Below, in pieces: positions 26,550-34,104 of a stretch of DNA of 64,000 nt. A program made the translations under genes and the position numbers. Origin of the DNA: Acetivibrio thermocellus ATCC 27405 (GTDB lineage Bacteria; Bacillota; Clostridia; Acetivibrionales; Acetivibrionaceae); NCBI RefSeq assembly GCF_000015865.1, contig NC_009012.1, forward strand, positions 620,001-684,000, in the 5' to 3' direction. Below the pieces are notes generated by a model. That model was not told where the DNA came from and searched no databases. It saw only the letters and a list, made by a program, of their open reading frames with translations. Numbering within the stretch: the first letter of the stretch is position 1; each line of letters begins with the position of its first letter.

Positions 26550-26749
26550 TTTGCAGATAAATTGCAAGACGAGAGTATGGCCTGATGCATGCACAGAGAA
26601 ATAAGCCCGGCTTCAAGACATGTAATATATATGTGGACAATATTTGATGTATATCCCCCGGATTTATCATTGTGGCATTAGAGAGGAAAAAATGCTATAA
26701 TTATACACTAGAAAATTGTGGTTCAGTTAAAATAAAGAAGGGGGATACG

Positions 26750-29038
26750 ATGTATAATCAAAGCAACGCCGGTAATGCAAATCATGTTGCAGATTCAAAG
26801 CGTCCCGCAAGAAAAAAGAAAATAGGTTGTTTAGGCTGCTTTGGATATTCTTTATTAACAATTCTGGTTTTGGCAGTTGGCCTCTTTGCATTTAATACCA
26901 TACGAAGCAAGATTGAAGAAAGAGAACAGCAAAAGTTGGAAGCCAGGTTTGATTATGAAGAAAAATTTTCCGCGGAAGAAAAACTTACCCGCTCTTTTGA
27001 AAAAGGTGAAATTTCTGCAGATACTTATGTTTTGCAGTTGGCATACAGCTTGTATGATGTTGAAAAGCTTGATCCGTTGTATAAATCAGATAATGATGTT
27101 GATTTTCCGCCGGATGTTGTTAATGCGGTATTAGAGCATGAAGATGAACTTAGCGACGAGACGTTGGAATATATTGCCAGCAAAATTTTAATGACAGATA
27201 TAAAAATTCATCCCGATGCCAGTCAGAATTCCGTAGCTTATAAAAATAATTGGCTTCCTTTTTCCGAATACGTGTTTGCTGAGGATGAATATGATGTTAC
27301 GGTTCTTGATAAAGCGATTTTATCTCCCGGCGGCAAGTTTTTGATATTTTATACCGAAACGGGAAAATCGGCGGTAAAACGTGAAGTTGTTCAGGAATTG
27401 GCAGGTTCTGTGGAAAAGATTGCAGATGATATAAGTGATTTTTTGGGTATTGAATGGGATTACAATTTTCAAGTGCTTAACTTTGAAAGTCATATACATA
27501 TGAAAAAGGTTTTAAATGCGTGCGGCATTGATGAAAATGCGATAAAAAAGGCACTTCCTGTTTATATTTATGAGCCGCCGGAAACGAGTGGAGCATTGGC
27601 ATGGTATATCAGAAATTTTAATCCCGTTGAGAAATTCGGAAATTGGCTGGTAAAAGTGGCCTCTGAGGAGAATATAATTGAAGAAAGGGCTACGGTGTAT
27701 TCTGTACCTTATATTGTTGTTAAAACTTCATCCATATCGAACATGGAAAACTTGAATGCAATTTTAGGCCATGAACTGACTCATCATTTTCAGAGGATAT
27801 ATTACAATAACCTCAATCACAATCCTCCTGATTTTACGAACGAAACAGTTGCTAATTTTGTATCTGCAAGTATTAATAAGAATAAAGGAACAAATACTGT
27901 GCTAAATAAACATGCAAATGACAGTATGAACGTTCTTGATAGCCATTTTTATACAATGATAGACGGAAAAGCTTGTGGGTATCTTGAGTTTGTTTGGGCA
28001 AAATCATATGTGGATATCATTGAAAACGGAAAGCAGTATCTGATGGAGTCGCTGCTTCAGGAAGGGAATCCTTTCAACTTTCTTAAAGAGAAGGCCGGAG
28101 ATTCGTATCAGCTGGTATTTGAAGATTTTGCAGTGCGCAATATTACTAAAGACTATCAGGAAAAAGGTTTTATTTCAACAATATTTCCGAAGCCGAAAGA
28201 GTGGATTAACCGCTATATGGACGGAGAAGAGCATGAGATTAATTTCAATTGTTTACATTATTACTATATTGATGTAAAATCTTTTCGCAAGTCAAAGACT
28301 GAAATTCGTATAAATAGTGTCGGAGACGCTGAGTTTTTTATAAAAGTAATTGGCAGAAAAAAAGAAAAGTACAGTCTTGTTGATACAATTTATTGCGAGC
28401 CGGGAAAGGAATTTTTGTTCGCAGATTTTTCAAAAGGTGATTACAAGGAATATAATGAAATAATTTTAGCTTTCGGAAATTGCGATACAACAGCGAAGGC
28501 CAAATATCAGATGATATGTTTGTCTCCTGCGACGATAGCCCTTTATGAGGCGCTGACCGGGCTTAAAGATATTGATCCGTGGGAAATTAACGGTGACTGC
28601 ATAACTATTAATGTAAAAGATTTTATGAAAGGTGCAACCACACTAACGGATTTATTTGCCCGCATAAATCCTTATATTTGGGCTGAGGTGATTGATGAAG
28701 ATTCACCGGATGTTGAAGAATATGTTGAACATCTTCAGGACGAGATTAACGAATTTGGAGAGGCTTTAAAGAAATTTGGGGACATGTTTGATTATAAGAC
28801 CGTTCGCATTTATGTTATGCCTATAAAAAATTCAGTGTTATCCGATGATGAAATTCATGATACCGCGTTGAAAAACATGCCTATACCCAGGTTAAAAGTT
28901 ATTGACAAGGCTGAGGACGGCATGCACTTGTCAATGGGCGGAAGTATTCAGCCTTTTTCTAAAACTCGGCTTATTTTCTATACGGTAATTACAAAACCGG
29001 ATGAAAAAATCATGTATCGTATTGAATTGGAAAAATAA
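26750..29038 (+). CDS. Membrane-anchored HExxH putative metallopeptidase
   Basis: 762 residues. One transmembrane segment (about 26-49) follows a basic N-terminus (RPARKKK). The rest is outside the cell, beginning with a charged coiled coil. A zinc-protease motif HELTHH (H341, E342, H345) sits in ILGHELTHHFQRIYY. The third ligand is not obvious. The C-terminal half shows KSKTEIRINSVGDAEFFI and similar beta-rich sequence. I do not recognise a named family. The ATG at 26750 follows AAGGGGG; the longer frame to 26672 lacks a site. It may process cell-surface or secreted proteins. Confidence 0.72.
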   Translation: MYNQSNAGNANHVADSKRPARKKKIGCLGCFGYSLLTILVLAVGLFAFNTIRSKIEEREQQKLEARFDYEEKFSAEEKLTRSFEKGEISADTYVLQLAYSLYDVEKLDPLYKSDNDVDFPPDVVNAVLEHEDELSDETLEYIASKILMTDIKIHPDASQNSVAYKNNWLPFSEYVFAEDEYDVTVLDKAILSPGGKFLIFYTETGKSAVKREVVQELAGSVEKIADDISDFLGIEWDYNFQVLNFESHIHMKKVLNACGIDENAIKKALPVYIYEPPETSGALAWYIRNFNPVEKFGNWLVKVASEENIIEERATVYSVPYIVVKTSSISNMENLNAILGHELTHHFQRIYYNNLNHNPPDFTNETVANFVSASINKNKGTNTVLNKHANDSMNVLDSHFYTMIDGKACGYLEFVWAKSYVDIIENGKQYLMESLLQEGNPFNFLKEKAGDSYQLVFEDFAVRNITKDYQEKGFISTIFPKPKEWINRYMDGEEHEINFNCLHYYYIDVKSFRKSKTEIRINSVGDAEFFIKVIGRKKEKYSLVDTIYCEPGKEFLFADFSKGDYKEYNEIILAFGNCDTTAKAKYQMICLSPATIALYEALTGLKDIDPWEINGDCITINVKDFMKGATTLTDLFARINPYIWAEVIDEDSPDVEEYVEHLQDEINEFGEALKKFGDMFDYKTVRIYVMPIKNSVLSDDEIHDTALKNMPIPRLKVIDKAEDGMHLSMGGSIQPFSKTRLIFYTVITKPDEKIMYRIELEK

Positions 29039-29945: not shown

Positions 29946-31478
29946 ATGAACAATCCAATTACTGCCGTCTGGGAAATCACCATGGGGTGCAACATGCGGT
30001 GCAAGCATTGCGGCTCCAGCTGTGAGAATGCCCTGGAGGGAGAGTTGACCACCGAGGAAGCTTTGAAACTTTGCGATGAATTGGGTGAGTTGGGTTTTAA
30101 GTGGATTACTTTGTCCGGTGGTGAGCCTACAACAAGAAAGGATTGGCATCTTATAGCCAAAAGGCTTAATGAAAATGGGATAATCCCCAATATGATAACC
30201 AATGGATGGCTGATGAATGAGGAGATTGCCGATAAAGCGGTGGAAGCGGGAATCAACACAGTTGCCATTAGTGTGGACGGGCTTGAAGAAACTCATGATT
30301 TTATTCGGAAAAAAGGCTCTTTCCAAAGGATAATGCGGGCTTTCGATATCCTTAGGACCAGGAATATATTCTATTCAGCCATTACCACAATAAACAACAT
30401 AAATATAAAGGAGCTTCCAAGGCTTAGAGATATTCTGATTGAAAAGGGAGTAAGAGGCTGGCAGCTTCAGCTTGGGCTTCCCATGGGAAATATGGCTAAA
30501 AACAATGAGCTTGTGGCTCAGCCTTACCATATAGACGAAGTGATAGAATTTTCCTATAAGACCGTAAAAGAGGGTTATAATATAGATGTTCAGCTGGCTG
30601 ACTGTATTGGCTATTTTAATTTAAAAGAAATAGAAGTGAGGAAAAACAGCTACGGTGGAGGAAGGGATGGTTACAACTGGACCGGATGCGGTGCCGGCAA
30701 ATACAGTCTCGGCATTCTGCATAACGGTGATATTTTAGGCTGTACATCCGTAAGAGACAGAAGCTTTATTGAAGGAAATATCAGACAGACCCCTATTAAA
30801 GAAATATGGATGAATCCTGACAGCTTTAGCTGGAACAGAAAAATGACCAAGGACAAGTTATCCGGCTTGTGTAAAAAATGCTATTTCGGAGAACGTTGTC
30901 TCGGAGGCTGCTCCAATACAAGGCTGACAATGGAAGGAAGCGTCTATTCTGAGAACAGATACTGTTCGTATAATGTGGCAATAAGCACTGCAAGAGAGCA
31001 GCTTGACAGAATTGAAGACGTAGATGTAATGCTTTCAAAAGCAAAGAAATTTGCAGACAATGGCAATTTTCAGCTGGCCGAAATACTGCTTTCCAGAGCC
31101 ATTGAAAAAGGCTGTCGCGATATTGGGGTGTTTGAGTTTTACGGATATATAAGTTTTATGCTGGGAAACTACCTTGATGCAAAGAAAGCAAATGAAGAGG
31201 CTTTGAAAATAAATCCGGACAGCGCTTATGCAAACAAGGGAATGGGTCTGTCTTTAGGAAGACTGGGAGAATTGGAAAAAGGAATAGAGTATTTGAGAAA
31301 GGCAATTGCTCTGTCCGATGAAAACTTCACAGACCCTTACTATGACCTGGCTGTTTTGCTTTATGAGAACGGAAGGAAAGAAGAAGCTCTGGAAGTTCTT
31401 GAAGAGGGAAGAAAAAAATACAAGAGTTTTATAGACACAAGCAAGGACCTTTATGATATTCTTACAAATGCTTCTTAG
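29946..31478 (+). CDS. Radical SAM/SPASM peptide maturase with C-terminal TPR domain
   Basis: 510 residues. The radical SAM cluster CxxxCxxC is C15, C19, C22, followed by SGGEP (58-61). The SPASM domain has C248, C266, C309, C312, C318, C322 and C340, enough for two auxiliary iron-sulfur clusters. TPR repeats fill about 362-495. SPASM enzymes modify ribosomal peptides by thioether, carbon-carbon or backbone chemistry. The N-terminus begins directly at the barrel, with no RRE domain, so the TPRs may bind the precursor leader. The ATG at 29946 follows AAGGAGTGG; the longer frame from 29820 lacks coding character. Next come the exporter (10 nt on) and the precursor gene. The four X-Tyr-Gly motifs in the precursor suggest splicease-type tyramine excision; this is inference. 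Confidence 0.85.
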   Translation: MNNPITAVWEITMGCNMRCKHCGSSCENALEGELTTEEALKLCDELGELGFKWITLSGGEPTTRKDWHLIAKRLNENGIIPNMITNGWLMNEEIADKAVEAGINTVAISVDGLEETHDFIRKKGSFQRIMRAFDILRTRNIFYSAITTINNINIKELPRLRDILIEKGVRGWQLQLGLPMGNMAKNNELVAQPYHIDEVIEFSYKTVKEGYNIDVQLADCIGYFNLKEIEVRKNSYGGGRDGYNWTGCGAGKYSLGILHNGDILGCTSVRDRSFIEGNIRQTPIKEIWMNPDSFSWNRKMTKDKLSGLCKKCYFGERCLGGCSNTRLTMEGSVYSENRYCSYNVAISTAREQLDRIEDVDVMLSKAKKFADNGNFQLAEILLSRAIEKGCRDIGVFEFYGYISFMLGNYLDAKKANEEALKINPDSAYANKGMGLSLGRLGELEKGIEYLRKAIALSDENFTDPYYDLAVLLYENGRKEEALEVLEEGRKKYKSFIDTSKDLYDILTNAS

Positions 31479-31488
31479 GAGTGGAGAA

Positions 31489-33672
31489 ATGCTCAGGCGT
31501 TTGTTCAAAAAAAAGTATGTATGCGTAAGGCAATATGATTTGACAGACTGTGGAGCAGCCTGTTTGTCCAGTATTGCCCAATATTACGGGTTAAAAATGT
31601 CCCTTGCAAAGATACGTGAGATGACAGGCACCGATACCCAGGGCACAAATGCCTATGGTTTAATTCATGCTGCAAAGCAACTGGGGTTTTCAGCAAAAGG
31701 TGTTAAGGCCTCAAAAGAGGATTTGCTGAAAGATTTTAGGCTTCCAGCCATAGCAAATGTAATTGTTGACAACAGGCTTGCTCATTTTGTAGTGATTTAT
31801 TCAATTAAAAACAGGATAATTACGGTTGCCGACCCTGGCAAGGGAATTGTCAGGTATAGTATGGATGATTTTTGTTCAATTTGGACCGGTGGGCTTGTTT
31901 TGCTGGAGCCCGGCGAAGCTTTCCAAAAAGGGGATTATACCCAAAATATGATGGTGAAATTTGCAGGTTTTTTGAAGCCTTTAAAAAAAACCGTACTGTG
32001 TATATTTTTAGCTTCGCTTTTATATACTGCTTTAGGAATTGCAGGCTCCTTTTATATCAAGTTTTTGTTTGACGACCTTATAAAATTTGAAAAGCTTAAC
32101 GACCTTCATATAATTTCCGCAGGATTTGCTGTTATATTTTTACTTCAGATATTTCTTAATTATTACAGAAGCATACTTGTTACCAAACTTGGAATGAGCA
32201 TTGACAAGTCCATAATGATGGAGTATTACTCCCATGTGTTAAAGCTTCCCATGAATTTTTTCAATTCCAGAAAAGTTGGGGAGATAATTTCAAGATTTAT
32301 GGATGCTTCAAAAATACGACAGGCAATTTCCGGAGCAACCCTTACCATAATGATTGATACAATTATGGCCGTTATCGGAGGAATTCTTTTATATATACAA
32401 AACTCTTCCCTGTTCTTTATATCTTTTATCATCATATTGCTGTACGGAATAATTGTGACGGTGTTTAACAAACCGATTCAGAATGCTAACAGGCAAATAA
32501 TGGAGGATAATGCAAAATTAACTTCGGCGCTGGTGGAGTCGGTTAAAGGGATTGAGACGATAAAATCCTTTGGTGCCGAGGAACAGACCGAAAAAAGCAC
32601 CAGAGACAAAATTGAAACTGTAATGAAAAGCTCTTTTAAAGAAGGGATGCTGTACATAAATCTTTCTTCCCTGACCGGTATTGTTGCCGGGCTTGGAGGT
32701 ATTGTAATACTCTGGGCCGGTGCATACAATGTCATAAAGGGAAACATGAGCGGGGGACAGCTTCTTGCTTTTAATGCACTGTTGGCATATTTTCTCACAC
32801 CTGTGAAAAACTTAATTGATCTTCAGCCGCTTATACAAACGGCGGTGGTAGCCTCCAACAGGCTTGGAGAGATACTTGAACTTGCCACTGAAAAGGAACT
32901 GAGAGAAGACAGTGATGATTTTGTCATATCATTAAAAGGAGACATTGAATTTAGGAATGTGGATTTTCGCTACGGATTAAGAAAGCCTGTGCTAAAAAAC
33001 ATTAATTTAACCATACCAAAAGGGAAAACGGTAGCCATAGTAGGTGAGAGTGGTTCCGGGAAAACTACTCTGGCAAAGCTTTTGATGAATTTTTACAGTC
33101 CGGAAAAAGGGGACATTTTGATAAACGGACACAGTATAAAAAATATAAGTTTGGAGTTGATTAGAAAGAAAATAGCTTTTGTTTCACAGGATGTCTTTAT
33201 TTTCAGTGGTACTGTAAAAGAAAATCTTTGTCTTGGCAATGAAAATGTTGATATGGATGAGATTATAAAAGCGGCTAAAATGGCAAATGCCCATGATTTT
33301 ATAGAAAAACTGCCCCTAAAATATGATACTTTTTTGAATGAAAGCGGAGCAAATCTTTCCGAAGGGCAAAAACAAAGGCTGGCGATAGCAAGGGCACTGC
33401 TTAAAAAACCGGATATTTTGATACTCGACGAGGCAACAAGCAATTTGGACAGCATCACCGAAAACCATATCAAGGATGCAATATACGGTTTGGAAGATGA
33501 TGTAACGGTTATTATAATAGCCCACAGGCTGAGCACAATAGTAAACTGTGACAAAATATATCTGCTAAAAGACGGTGAGATAGTGGAGAGTGGCTCTCAC
33601 ACCGAGCTTATAGCGTTAAAAGGTTGTTATTTTAAGATGTGGAAACAGACAGAAAACACTTTGGCTTCGTAA
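31489..33672 (+). CDS. Peptidase-containing ABC transporter (PCAT1-like)
   Basis: 727 residues. The N-terminal C39 peptidase has catalytic C21 (DLTDCGAACLSS), H99 (LAHFVV) and D115 (ADPGKG). It cleaves precursors after a double glycine. A six-helix transmembrane domain follows, then a nucleotide-binding domain with Walker A GESGSGKTT, signature LSEGQKQR and Walker B ILILDEATS. It works as a homodimer that cuts the leader and exports the peptide. Length and catalytic positions match PCAT1 of C. thermocellum, whose structure is known. The ATG at 31489 follows GGAGTGGAG. It is translated just after the radical SAM gene and just before the precursor. Confidence 0.95.
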   Translation: MLRRLFKKKYVCVRQYDLTDCGAACLSSIAQYYGLKMSLAKIREMTGTDTQGTNAYGLIHAAKQLGFSAKGVKASKEDLLKDFRLPAIANVIVDNRLAHFVVIYSIKNRIITVADPGKGIVRYSMDDFCSIWTGGLVLLEPGEAFQKGDYTQNMMVKFAGFLKPLKKTVLCIFLASLLYTALGIAGSFYIKFLFDDLIKFEKLNDLHIISAGFAVIFLLQIFLNYYRSILVTKLGMSIDKSIMMEYYSHVLKLPMNFFNSRKVGEIISRFMDASKIRQAISGATLTIMIDTIMAVIGGILLYIQNSSLFFISFIIILLYGIIVTVFNKPIQNANRQIMEDNAKLTSALVESVKGIETIKSFGAEEQTEKSTRDKIETVMKSSFKEGMLYINLSSLTGIVAGLGGIVILWAGAYNVIKGNMSGGQLLAFNALLAYFLTPVKNLIDLQPLIQTAVVASNRLGEILELATEKELREDSDDFVISLKGDIEFRNVDFRYGLRKPVLKNINLTIPKGKTVAIVGESGSGKTTLAKLLMNFYSPEKGDILINGHSIKNISLELIRKKIAFVSQDVFIFSGTVKENLCLGNENVDMDEIIKAAKMANAHDFIEKLPLKYDTFLNESGANLSEGQKQRLAIARALLKKPDILILDEATSNLDSITENHIKDAIYGLEDDVTVIIIAHRLSTIVNCDKIYLLKDGEIVESGSHTELIALKGCYFKMWKQTENTLAS

Positions 33673-33688
33673 AAAAGAACTATCTCTT

Positions 33689-33734
33689 CTCAGAAAGAAT
33701 GCAAATCAGAGATAAAGCAAGCATTCTTCCTGAG
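33689..33734 (+). repeat. Hairpin between transporter and precursor genes
   Basis: CTCAGAAAGAATGC (33689-33702) pairs with GCATTCTTCCTGAG (33721-33734): 13 of 14 positions, 18-nt loop. No T-run follows, so it is not a simple terminator. It may mark an RNA processing or stabilising site that raises precursor mRNA above the upstream genes. Confidence 0.65.
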
Positions 33735-33774
33735 GGGAATAGTATATAAGATAACTTAAAAAGGGGGTGAGACC

Positions 33775-34047
33775 ATGTCAGAAGCAAAGAAACTGAACAT
33801 CGGAAGAGAATTGACAGATGAGGAACTTATGGAAATGACGGGAGGATCCACTTTTAGTATCCAGTGTCAGAAAGACTATACATATAAACCATCACTGCCT
33901 GTTGTTAAGTATGGAGTTGTGATTGACGAACCGGAAGTTGTTATAAAGTATGGCGTTGGTCCGATAGTCGGAATTAAGTATGGTGTTGAACCAATTGGAC
34001 CAATACAACCAATGTATGGAATAAAGCCGGTGGAAACATTGAAATAA
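33775..34047 (+). CDS. Double-glycine peptide precursor with X-Tyr-Gly repeats (CtA-like)
   Basis: 90 residues. The leader is residues 1-24, with ELTDEELMEMTGG, a typical double-glycine leader cut after G24. The core is residues 25-90. It has a single cysteine (C31) and four X-Tyr-Gly motifs: K45-Y46-G47, K58-Y59-G60, K68-Y69-G70 and M80-Y81-G82. The first three sit in the repeating context (V/I)KYGV. It matches the known PCAT1 substrate CtA in size and position. X-Y-G is the recognition motif of PlpX-type spliceases, which remove tyramine and leave alpha-keto-beta-amino residues. The radical SAM enzyme upstream fits such a role. The ATG follows AAAGGGGGTGAG. An exported signal or antimicrobial peptide is likely. 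Confidence 0.88.
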   Translation: MSEAKKLNIGRELTDEELMEMTGGSTFSIQCQKDYTYKPSLPVVKYGVVIDEPEVVIKYGVGPIVGIKYGVEPIGPIQPMYGIKPVETLK

Positions 34048-34077
34048 AGAGTCAAAATGATTTTGTTTTAGTTTTTG

Positions 34078-34104
34078 GCATGGTCAAGTAACCATGCTTT
34101 TTTT
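34078..34104 (+). terminator. Terminator of the precursor gene
   Basis: GCATGGT (34078-34084) pairs with ACCATGC (34091-34097), followed by seven T. It ends the peptide operon. Confidence 0.88.

Follow-up and report, generated by a model that had tools for sequence, protein, structure and literature searches.

A TPR-fused radical SAM/SPASM enzyme encoded with PCAT1 and CtA in Acetivibrio thermocellus is a candidate multi-site splicease

Structural work on peptidase-containing exporters has a model pair in the peptidase-containing ATP-binding cassette (ABC) transporter PCAT1 and its peptide CtA, whose genes in Acetivibrio thermocellus ATCC 27405 follow that of a possible peptide-modifying enzyme. 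We analysed a window of 64,000 nucleotides (RefSeq assembly GCF_000015865.1, contig NC_009012.1, positions 620,001 to 684,000, forward strand) from this genome of 3.84 Mb in one contig. A three-gene operon on the plus strand encodes a radical S-adenosylmethionine (SAM)/SPASM enzyme with tetratricopeptide repeats (TPR), PCAT1 and CtA, in that order (Table 1); the closest named relatives of the enzyme are from Acetivibrio. The transporter and precursor are the known PCAT1/CtA pair of C. thermocellum itself, as the first-pass annotation had recognised: the precursor showed zero differences from CtA over 90 of 90 residues (PDB 6v9z/7t55-57 and 8vp3), and the transporter aligned over its full length to the PCAT1 chains of PDB 4ry2, 6v9z and others with an E value of 0. 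Both hallmarks of PCAT/double-Gly export, a C39 peptidase-ABC fusion and a double-Gly leader, were present. A 2023 review gives the structure of PCAT1's modified substrate as undetermined, presumes it to be a ribosomally synthesized and post-translationally modified peptide (RiPP) and names spliceotides among the users of such transporters (PMC10885120); in our search of the literature on PCAT1/CtA with radical SAM enzymes, only this review treated the pair as a RiPP system, and a search by locus tag brought up no paper. CtA was studied without the enzyme in PMC6959990, and the word 'radical' is absent from the main text of that paper. We consider it likely that CtA is a spliceotide precursor that a PlpX relative with a fused TPR tail modifies at up to four sites, after which PCAT1 exports it.

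PlpX, of the SPASM subclass IPR026482, is described as excising tyramine at Xaa-Tyr-Gly together with PlpY (PMC11002830), and the splicease reaction as a mass loss of C8H9NO at the natural sites MYG and LYG (PMC10533398). The core of CtA contains three KYG motifs and one MYG motif, at residues 45-47, 58-60, 68-70 and 80-82, exactly where they had first been read. At least four Tyr-(Gly/Ala) pairs occurred in about 0.06% of residue shuffles of the 66-residue core and in 0.18% when all 90 residues were shuffled. The flanks of the MYG motif share four identities with the splice tag of PlpA2, GGPIRPxYGLPI (PMC10533398), a likeness that was equalled in 2.9% of shuffles and is weak alone. The first-pass annotation had regarded four excisions on one peptide as unusual, a view that is not supported, since spliceases described in the literature already splice several sites; multiplicity alone is therefore not new. 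The core has a single Cys, where sactipeptides and ranthipeptides would have several, and CtA lacks Trp, the core residue expected of streptide and tryptophan cyclophanes.

The motifs are kept in CtA and in the precursors of relatives while the remaining sequence diverges, and the codons of CtA are consistent with this. Loci labelled L plus a number are genome stretches around relatives of the enzyme. When the window was compared with L005, its nearest ortholog, six of the 16 codons for the X-Tyr-Gly motifs and the residue after each were identical, nine synonymous and one non-synonymous (Met to Leu at X); for the other aligned core codons the counts were 22, 13 and 12, respectively. The corresponding counts against L008 were 9, 6 and 1 for the motif codons and 21, 9 and 17 for the remaining core. 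The Gly codons of the four repeats are GGA, GGC, GGT and GGA, three different ones, which speaks for repeats preserved by selection and against their having been copied recently.

The enzyme matched Radical_SAM (2e-27), SPASM (7e-10) and TPR in Pfam, and its AlphaFold2 model (predicted local distance difference test, pLDDT, 93.4) was closest by Foldseek to PqqE and SuiB; among 46 PDB sequences that matched the enzyme, none is named as a splicease. The top NCBIfam model was TIGR04103 (nif11-class maturase 3), which we take to be the same subclass as IPR026482. A locus on a Nostoc plasmid (L047) encodes an enzyme that scored 853 bits with TIGR04103, over the cut-off of 725. Before it lies the gene for a Nif11 precursor with the C-terminal sequence ALYGLPPELF, and an overlapping 71-residue gene follows in the position of PlpY. 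The Nostoc enzyme served as the stand-in for the PlpX type and is the one PlpX-type sequence in a tree of 67 enzymes, from which duplicate loci and a broken enzyme (L095) were omitted and in which the duplicate pair L021/L098 and the near-identical pair L040/L048 were kept. In the tree, 56 enzymes (the TPR clade, the Nostoc enzyme, the GDL type and the VYAGP type) were separated from the 11 remaining SPASM enzymes by a branch with a Shimodaira-Hasegawa-like approximate likelihood ratio test (SH-aLRT) value of 95. W172, M180, G222 and Y223 were invariant in the 56 clade enzymes and present in 1, 0, 1 and 1 of the 11 others, and two signatures, WQxQxxx(P/A)MGN and GY(Y/F), were nearly invariant in the clade. 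By these sequence features the window enzyme appears to belong to a wider clade with the PlpX-type enzymes. A position away from all spliceases had been named beforehand as the outcome that would speak against splicing; the tree, which contains no experimentally proven splicease, did not give it. The enzyme at locus L143 (genome G1025) was considered as a further family member and rejected, having SPLGRM where the clade has PMGN.

Relatives of the enzyme usually adjoined a gene for a protein with the same motif. Scanning genome contigs identified 42 loci. Of 391 genomes sampled evenly from the class, 13 were positive at E <= 1e-60, and of 297 genomes searched in the phylum of the L029 genome two had a match, the second being the L143 enzyme rejected above. 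In viral contigs no relative of the window enzyme was detected, and the Nostoc enzyme gave weak partial matches only (23-38% identity). Hand reading of 45 loci, in which the partner was selected visually by a reader who could see the motif, found a partner with at least one YG/YA beyond residue 15 in 42 loci and at least two in 28; this count omits L045, whose precursor has AYG, and L046, both of which are among the 42 scan loci (matches of 43 and 18 residues). An automatic test, in which the best open reading frame (ORF) near each enzyme was judged by shuffling with Bonferroni correction, was passed at 0.05 by 24 of 56 family loci (not fully independent, as L012 was counted twice and L035 and L038 are from the same genome) and by none of 31 control regions, all from the window genome and holding 34 of its 35 other radical SAM matches. 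One of the passing loci, L026, did so via an out-of-frame ORF.

The residues around the motif bear on the type of chemistry. In 23 CtA-like peptides from 18 loci (one of them, L022, without a clear double-Gly), 80 of 100 core Tyr residues preceded Gly, and Ile or Val came next in 78 of these 80. The residue before Tyr was Leu in 41, Lys in 24, Met in 4, Glu in 3 and others in the rest. Backbone splicing would require Tyr-Gly to stay constant and would leave X free to vary, a pattern that a fixed side-chain crosslink would not predict. The first-pass annotation had also raised a modification specific to Lys-Tyr, either a crosslink or another Lys-directed chemistry, as three of the four CtA motifs would allow; Lys also precedes Tyr in 59 of 113 motifs of the large-domain precursors. 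The variation at X disfavours it, since Leu is the commonest residue in the CtA-like relatives and CtA itself has MYG as its last motif, and we regard a Lys-specific reaction as highly improbable.

Splicing would also have to be preferred over a reading in which the repeat has a structural or binding role in CtA, with the radical SAM enzyme idle or engaged in something else. PCAT1 does bind CtA produced without the enzyme, according to PMC6959990. The motif, however, tracked the enzyme across double-Gly, NHLP, Nif11, chagasin and S-layer homology (SLH) scaffolds, and was also found where no C39 transporter was seen in the stretch covered. Among loci with double-Gly leaders, a PCAT1-like C39 transporter was present in ten besides the window (L005-L010, L014-L016 and L044), was not seen within the stretch in four (L011, L012, L013 and L039), and was represented in L032 by the ABC half only, close to the end of the locus. 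A structural or binding role has, in our judgement, very little chance of being the explanation. In an eroded locus of a genome from the same family (L095, G222:C1:2164000-2175000), the enzyme has lost the greater part of its N-terminal 250 residues and a short C39 remnant was all that was found of the transporter, while the gene for a CtA-like precursor is still there with its four motifs.

The partners outside the CtA type were diverse. Those with NHLP leaders have one AYG, VYG or MYA, and all four that were tested scored above the NCBIfam cut-off. An SLH-domain protein beside a family enzyme (L034:1793-2575) has EYGYP, VYGIP and PYGFP at its C-terminus and is possibly a spliced surface protein. 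GDL-motif maturases (TIGR03913) fall in the same wider clade as the window enzyme and may act on the same Tyr motif, the GDL (DUF1843) peptides carrying LYA, MYA, PYG, MLYGG, KPYG or MYM near the N-terminus (L049:5159-5872, L050:5037-5752). They differ in having one motif per peptide and, by eye, a zinc-ribbon-like tail where the window enzyme has TPR. Two other arrangements were observed. Enzymes of about 350 residues without the TPR tail (L061, L062, L063 and L064) adjoin proteins with repeated VYAGPE/VYGGPE, the one at L063 with a zinc ribbon by Pfam. Near-identical 384-residue enzymes in Blautia and on an Agathobacter plasmid (L040:5725-5919, L048:5713-5919) accompany a small protein that ends in FGPVMYGTGVRM, with a major facilitator superfamily (MFS) transporter annotated adjacent on the plasmid.

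Another group of partners has X-Tyr-(Gly/Ala/Met) arrays behind a chagasin (I42) domain, a cysteine-protease inhibitor domain that CtA itself lacks. Eleven proteins of this chagasin type, encoded next to enzyme relatives, were aligned; I42 was above the Pfam cut-off in seven (L019, L021, L026, L029, L030, L031 and L097) and below it in L033, and L035, L036 and L099 had no I42 match. Beyond residue 115, YG/YA occurred 16 times in L099, 14 times in L019 and L030, 12 times in L029, 10 times in L021 and L035, 9 times in L031 and L097, 4 times in L036 and once in L033, and L026 has five YM. The model of L036 had an overall pLDDT of 66, with ten-residue block values of 77-95 for residues 1-100. Its seven best structural matches were chagasin, inhibitor of cysteine proteases (ICP) or amebosin, presumably also an ICP, with Z 10.1-11.1, root-mean-square deviation 2.7-2.9 and 91-92 aligned residues; the next ICP followed at Z 9.4 and the first unrelated structure at 8.5. 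Foldseek gave four matches at E <= 0.001, of which one was to an unrelated ZP-C domain, so the chagasin fold predicted for L036 rests on the Z-score comparison together with the Pfam matches of its relatives. Spliceotide products are reported to be protease inhibitors (PMC11117315, citing Scott et al. 2022), and chagasin domains in the precursors, unexpected as they were, are in line with such reports. Our literature search gave no paper that joins chagasin with radical SAM.

The TPR tail distinguishes most of the family, TPR_2 being matched in 37 of 50 family enzymes scanned. The first-pass description of a SPASM enzyme with TPR and no RiPP recognition element (RRE) agrees with the Pfam results, in which no RRE or PqqD-like match was detected at E <= 1 among 24 families. 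PlpY is described as too small for the RRE fold (PMC12710340). The window system resembles PlpX/PlpY with PlpA of Pleurocapsa sp. PCC 7319 in its radical SAM/SPASM enzyme, its XYG sites and the possibility of several sites per precursor, and is unlike it in having the TPR tail, a double-Gly leader with PCAT export, mainly KYG sites, and no PlpY-like gene that we could find. The TPR tail is probably a substrate-handling module that takes the part of PlpY.

Several observations weigh against splicing at this locus. The CtA motif alone had p = 0.069 after correction over 46 ORFs near the enzyme, which is not significant, and the strong evidence therefore comes from the relatives. Among these, 32 of 56 loci failed the automatic test, many of them with a single motif, which cannot pass; two of the 45 hand-read loci (L023 and L042) showed no partner with a motif, and L026, with its five XYM, has no YG/YA. 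The known PlpX sites are MYG and LYG, and KYG is unattested in the literature surveyed. The enzyme scored 252.5 bits with TIGR04103, more than 470 bits under the cut-off of 725, and for this reason is not a member of that equivalog, although its mode of action is probably the same. Comparison with the PlpX type relied on the Nostoc stand-in, which has only about 35% identity across 73% of the window enzyme, and included no experimentally proven splicease; the tree was built quickly, lacked bootstraps and drew long-branch warnings from the program. A gene like that for PlpY, which is part of the known complex, was detected neither in the window nor in 55 family loci nor in the whole genome (best E 0.53-0.54); as the single query, a 71-residue Nostoc protein, had been chosen by its position, this is a weak negative result on the helper gene that the first pass had called absent. 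The splicease proposal made in the first pass is partly supported, by the best family model, the clade grouping and the motifs of the relatives.

Some relatives carry XYA or XYM in place of XYG, variants that make a different Tyr chemistry common to the clade possible. An enzyme that acts at X-Tyr-(Gly/Ala) by such chemistry (crosslink, dehydrogenation or side-chain loss), in a clade whose ancestor was not a splicease, would also fit the wide divergence from the PlpX-type enzyme and the missing PlpY-like gene, and SPASM enzymes perform many chemistries. Against this, the window enzyme has both signature and motif in common with the PlpX-type enzyme, and the sequence next to Tyr varies too much for a fixed crosslink between side chains. 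We consider other Tyr chemistry unlikely, though the most credible of the alternatives.

If splicing does occur, the TPR-containing enzyme would bind the leader and core of CtA and generate a 5'-deoxyadenosyl radical. At X-Tyr-Gly the tyramine unit (C8H9NO, -135.07 Da) would be removed and the remaining Tyr carbonyl joined to the carbonyl of X. The alpha-keto-beta-amino residues formed in this way would number at most four, of which three would derive from Lys and one from Met. The core without its leader has a calculated mass of 7265.91 Da unmodified and of 7130.84, 6995.77, 6860.70 and 6725.64 Da with one to four excisions. PCAT1 would then cut after Gly23-Gly24 and export the product, cleavage and export being the steps known from the PCAT1 literature. 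The ketoamides would probably be protease-inhibiting warheads, and the peptide could become a multi-headed protease inhibitor.

The remaining features of the operon are non-coding or lie at its edges. The reading frame of the enzyme gene is already open from 29820, and upstream of the operon (window 26672-29038) is a gene for a 788-residue protein with no Pfam match above the cut-off. The hairpin between PCAT1 and ctA folded better than 200 of 200 shuffles and was kept in five Acetivibrio-type loci, with three pairs altered on both sides (three were reached in 7 of 500 shuffles); it may set the level of ctA mRNA. Terminator-like sites such as the one 3' of ctA numbered four in the region, where 3.1 were expected.

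Table 1. Positions of the operon, its motifs and non-coding elements in the window, and of chagasin-type precursors at related loci
Feature	Position	Strand	Basis or remark
Radical SAM/SPASM enzyme, C-terminal TPR repeats, 510 aa, candidate multi-site splicease	29946..31478	+	Pfam, NCBIfam, AlphaFold2
TPR region of enzyme, ~residues 359-508	31020..31469	+	Pfam TPR within residues 406-494; helices through 359-508 in model
PCAT1, C39 peptidase-ABC transporter, cleaves after Gly-Gly and exports	31489..33672	+	Pfam Peptidase_C39, ABC_membrane, ABC_tran
Conserved RNA hairpin between PCAT1 and ctA	33679..33743	+	z -3.5
ctA precursor, 90 aa (24-aa double-Gly leader, 66-aa core)	33775..34047	+	Identical to CtA in PDB
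K45-Y46-G47 motif	33907..33915	+	
K58-Y59-G60 motif	33946..33954	+	
K68-Y69-G70 motif	33976..33984	+	
M80-Y81-G82 motif within GPIQPMYGIKP	34012..34020	+	Somewhat like PlpA2 splice tag
Intrinsic-terminator-like stem-loop and T run, 3' of ctA	34077..34098	+	
Chagasin-type precursor	L029:4823-5905		I42 above cut-off
Chagasin-type precursor	L030:4748-5905		I42 above cut-off
Chagasin-type precursor	L031:5108-5911		I42 above cut-off
Chagasin-type precursor	L019:4797-5861		I42 above cut-off
Chagasin-type precursor	L021:4853-5797		I42 above cut-off
Chagasin-type precursor	L026:5229-5810		I42 above cut-off
Chagasin-type precursor	L097:7243-8190	-	I42 above cut-off

Scott et al. 2022, whose title mentions proteins, may already report some of the wider family. 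A broader proposal, whose chances we put at about even, is that the family is a TPR-fused, PlpY-independent splicease class that acts on XYA as well as XYG and at many sites per chain (four in CtA and up to 16 candidates in relatives). The native cargo of PCAT1 would then be a four-fold spliced ketoamide peptide, and in other bacteria the class would set arrays of ketoamide warheads on chagasin-type inhibitors and, in one case, on a protein with an S-layer domain. Splicing of CtA would make the real cargo of PCAT1 chemically unlike the unmodified peptide. A splicease from a thermophile that needs no PlpY and acts on several sites would be useful for placing ketoamides into proteins, and splicing would be linked to dedicated protease-inhibitor scaffolds.

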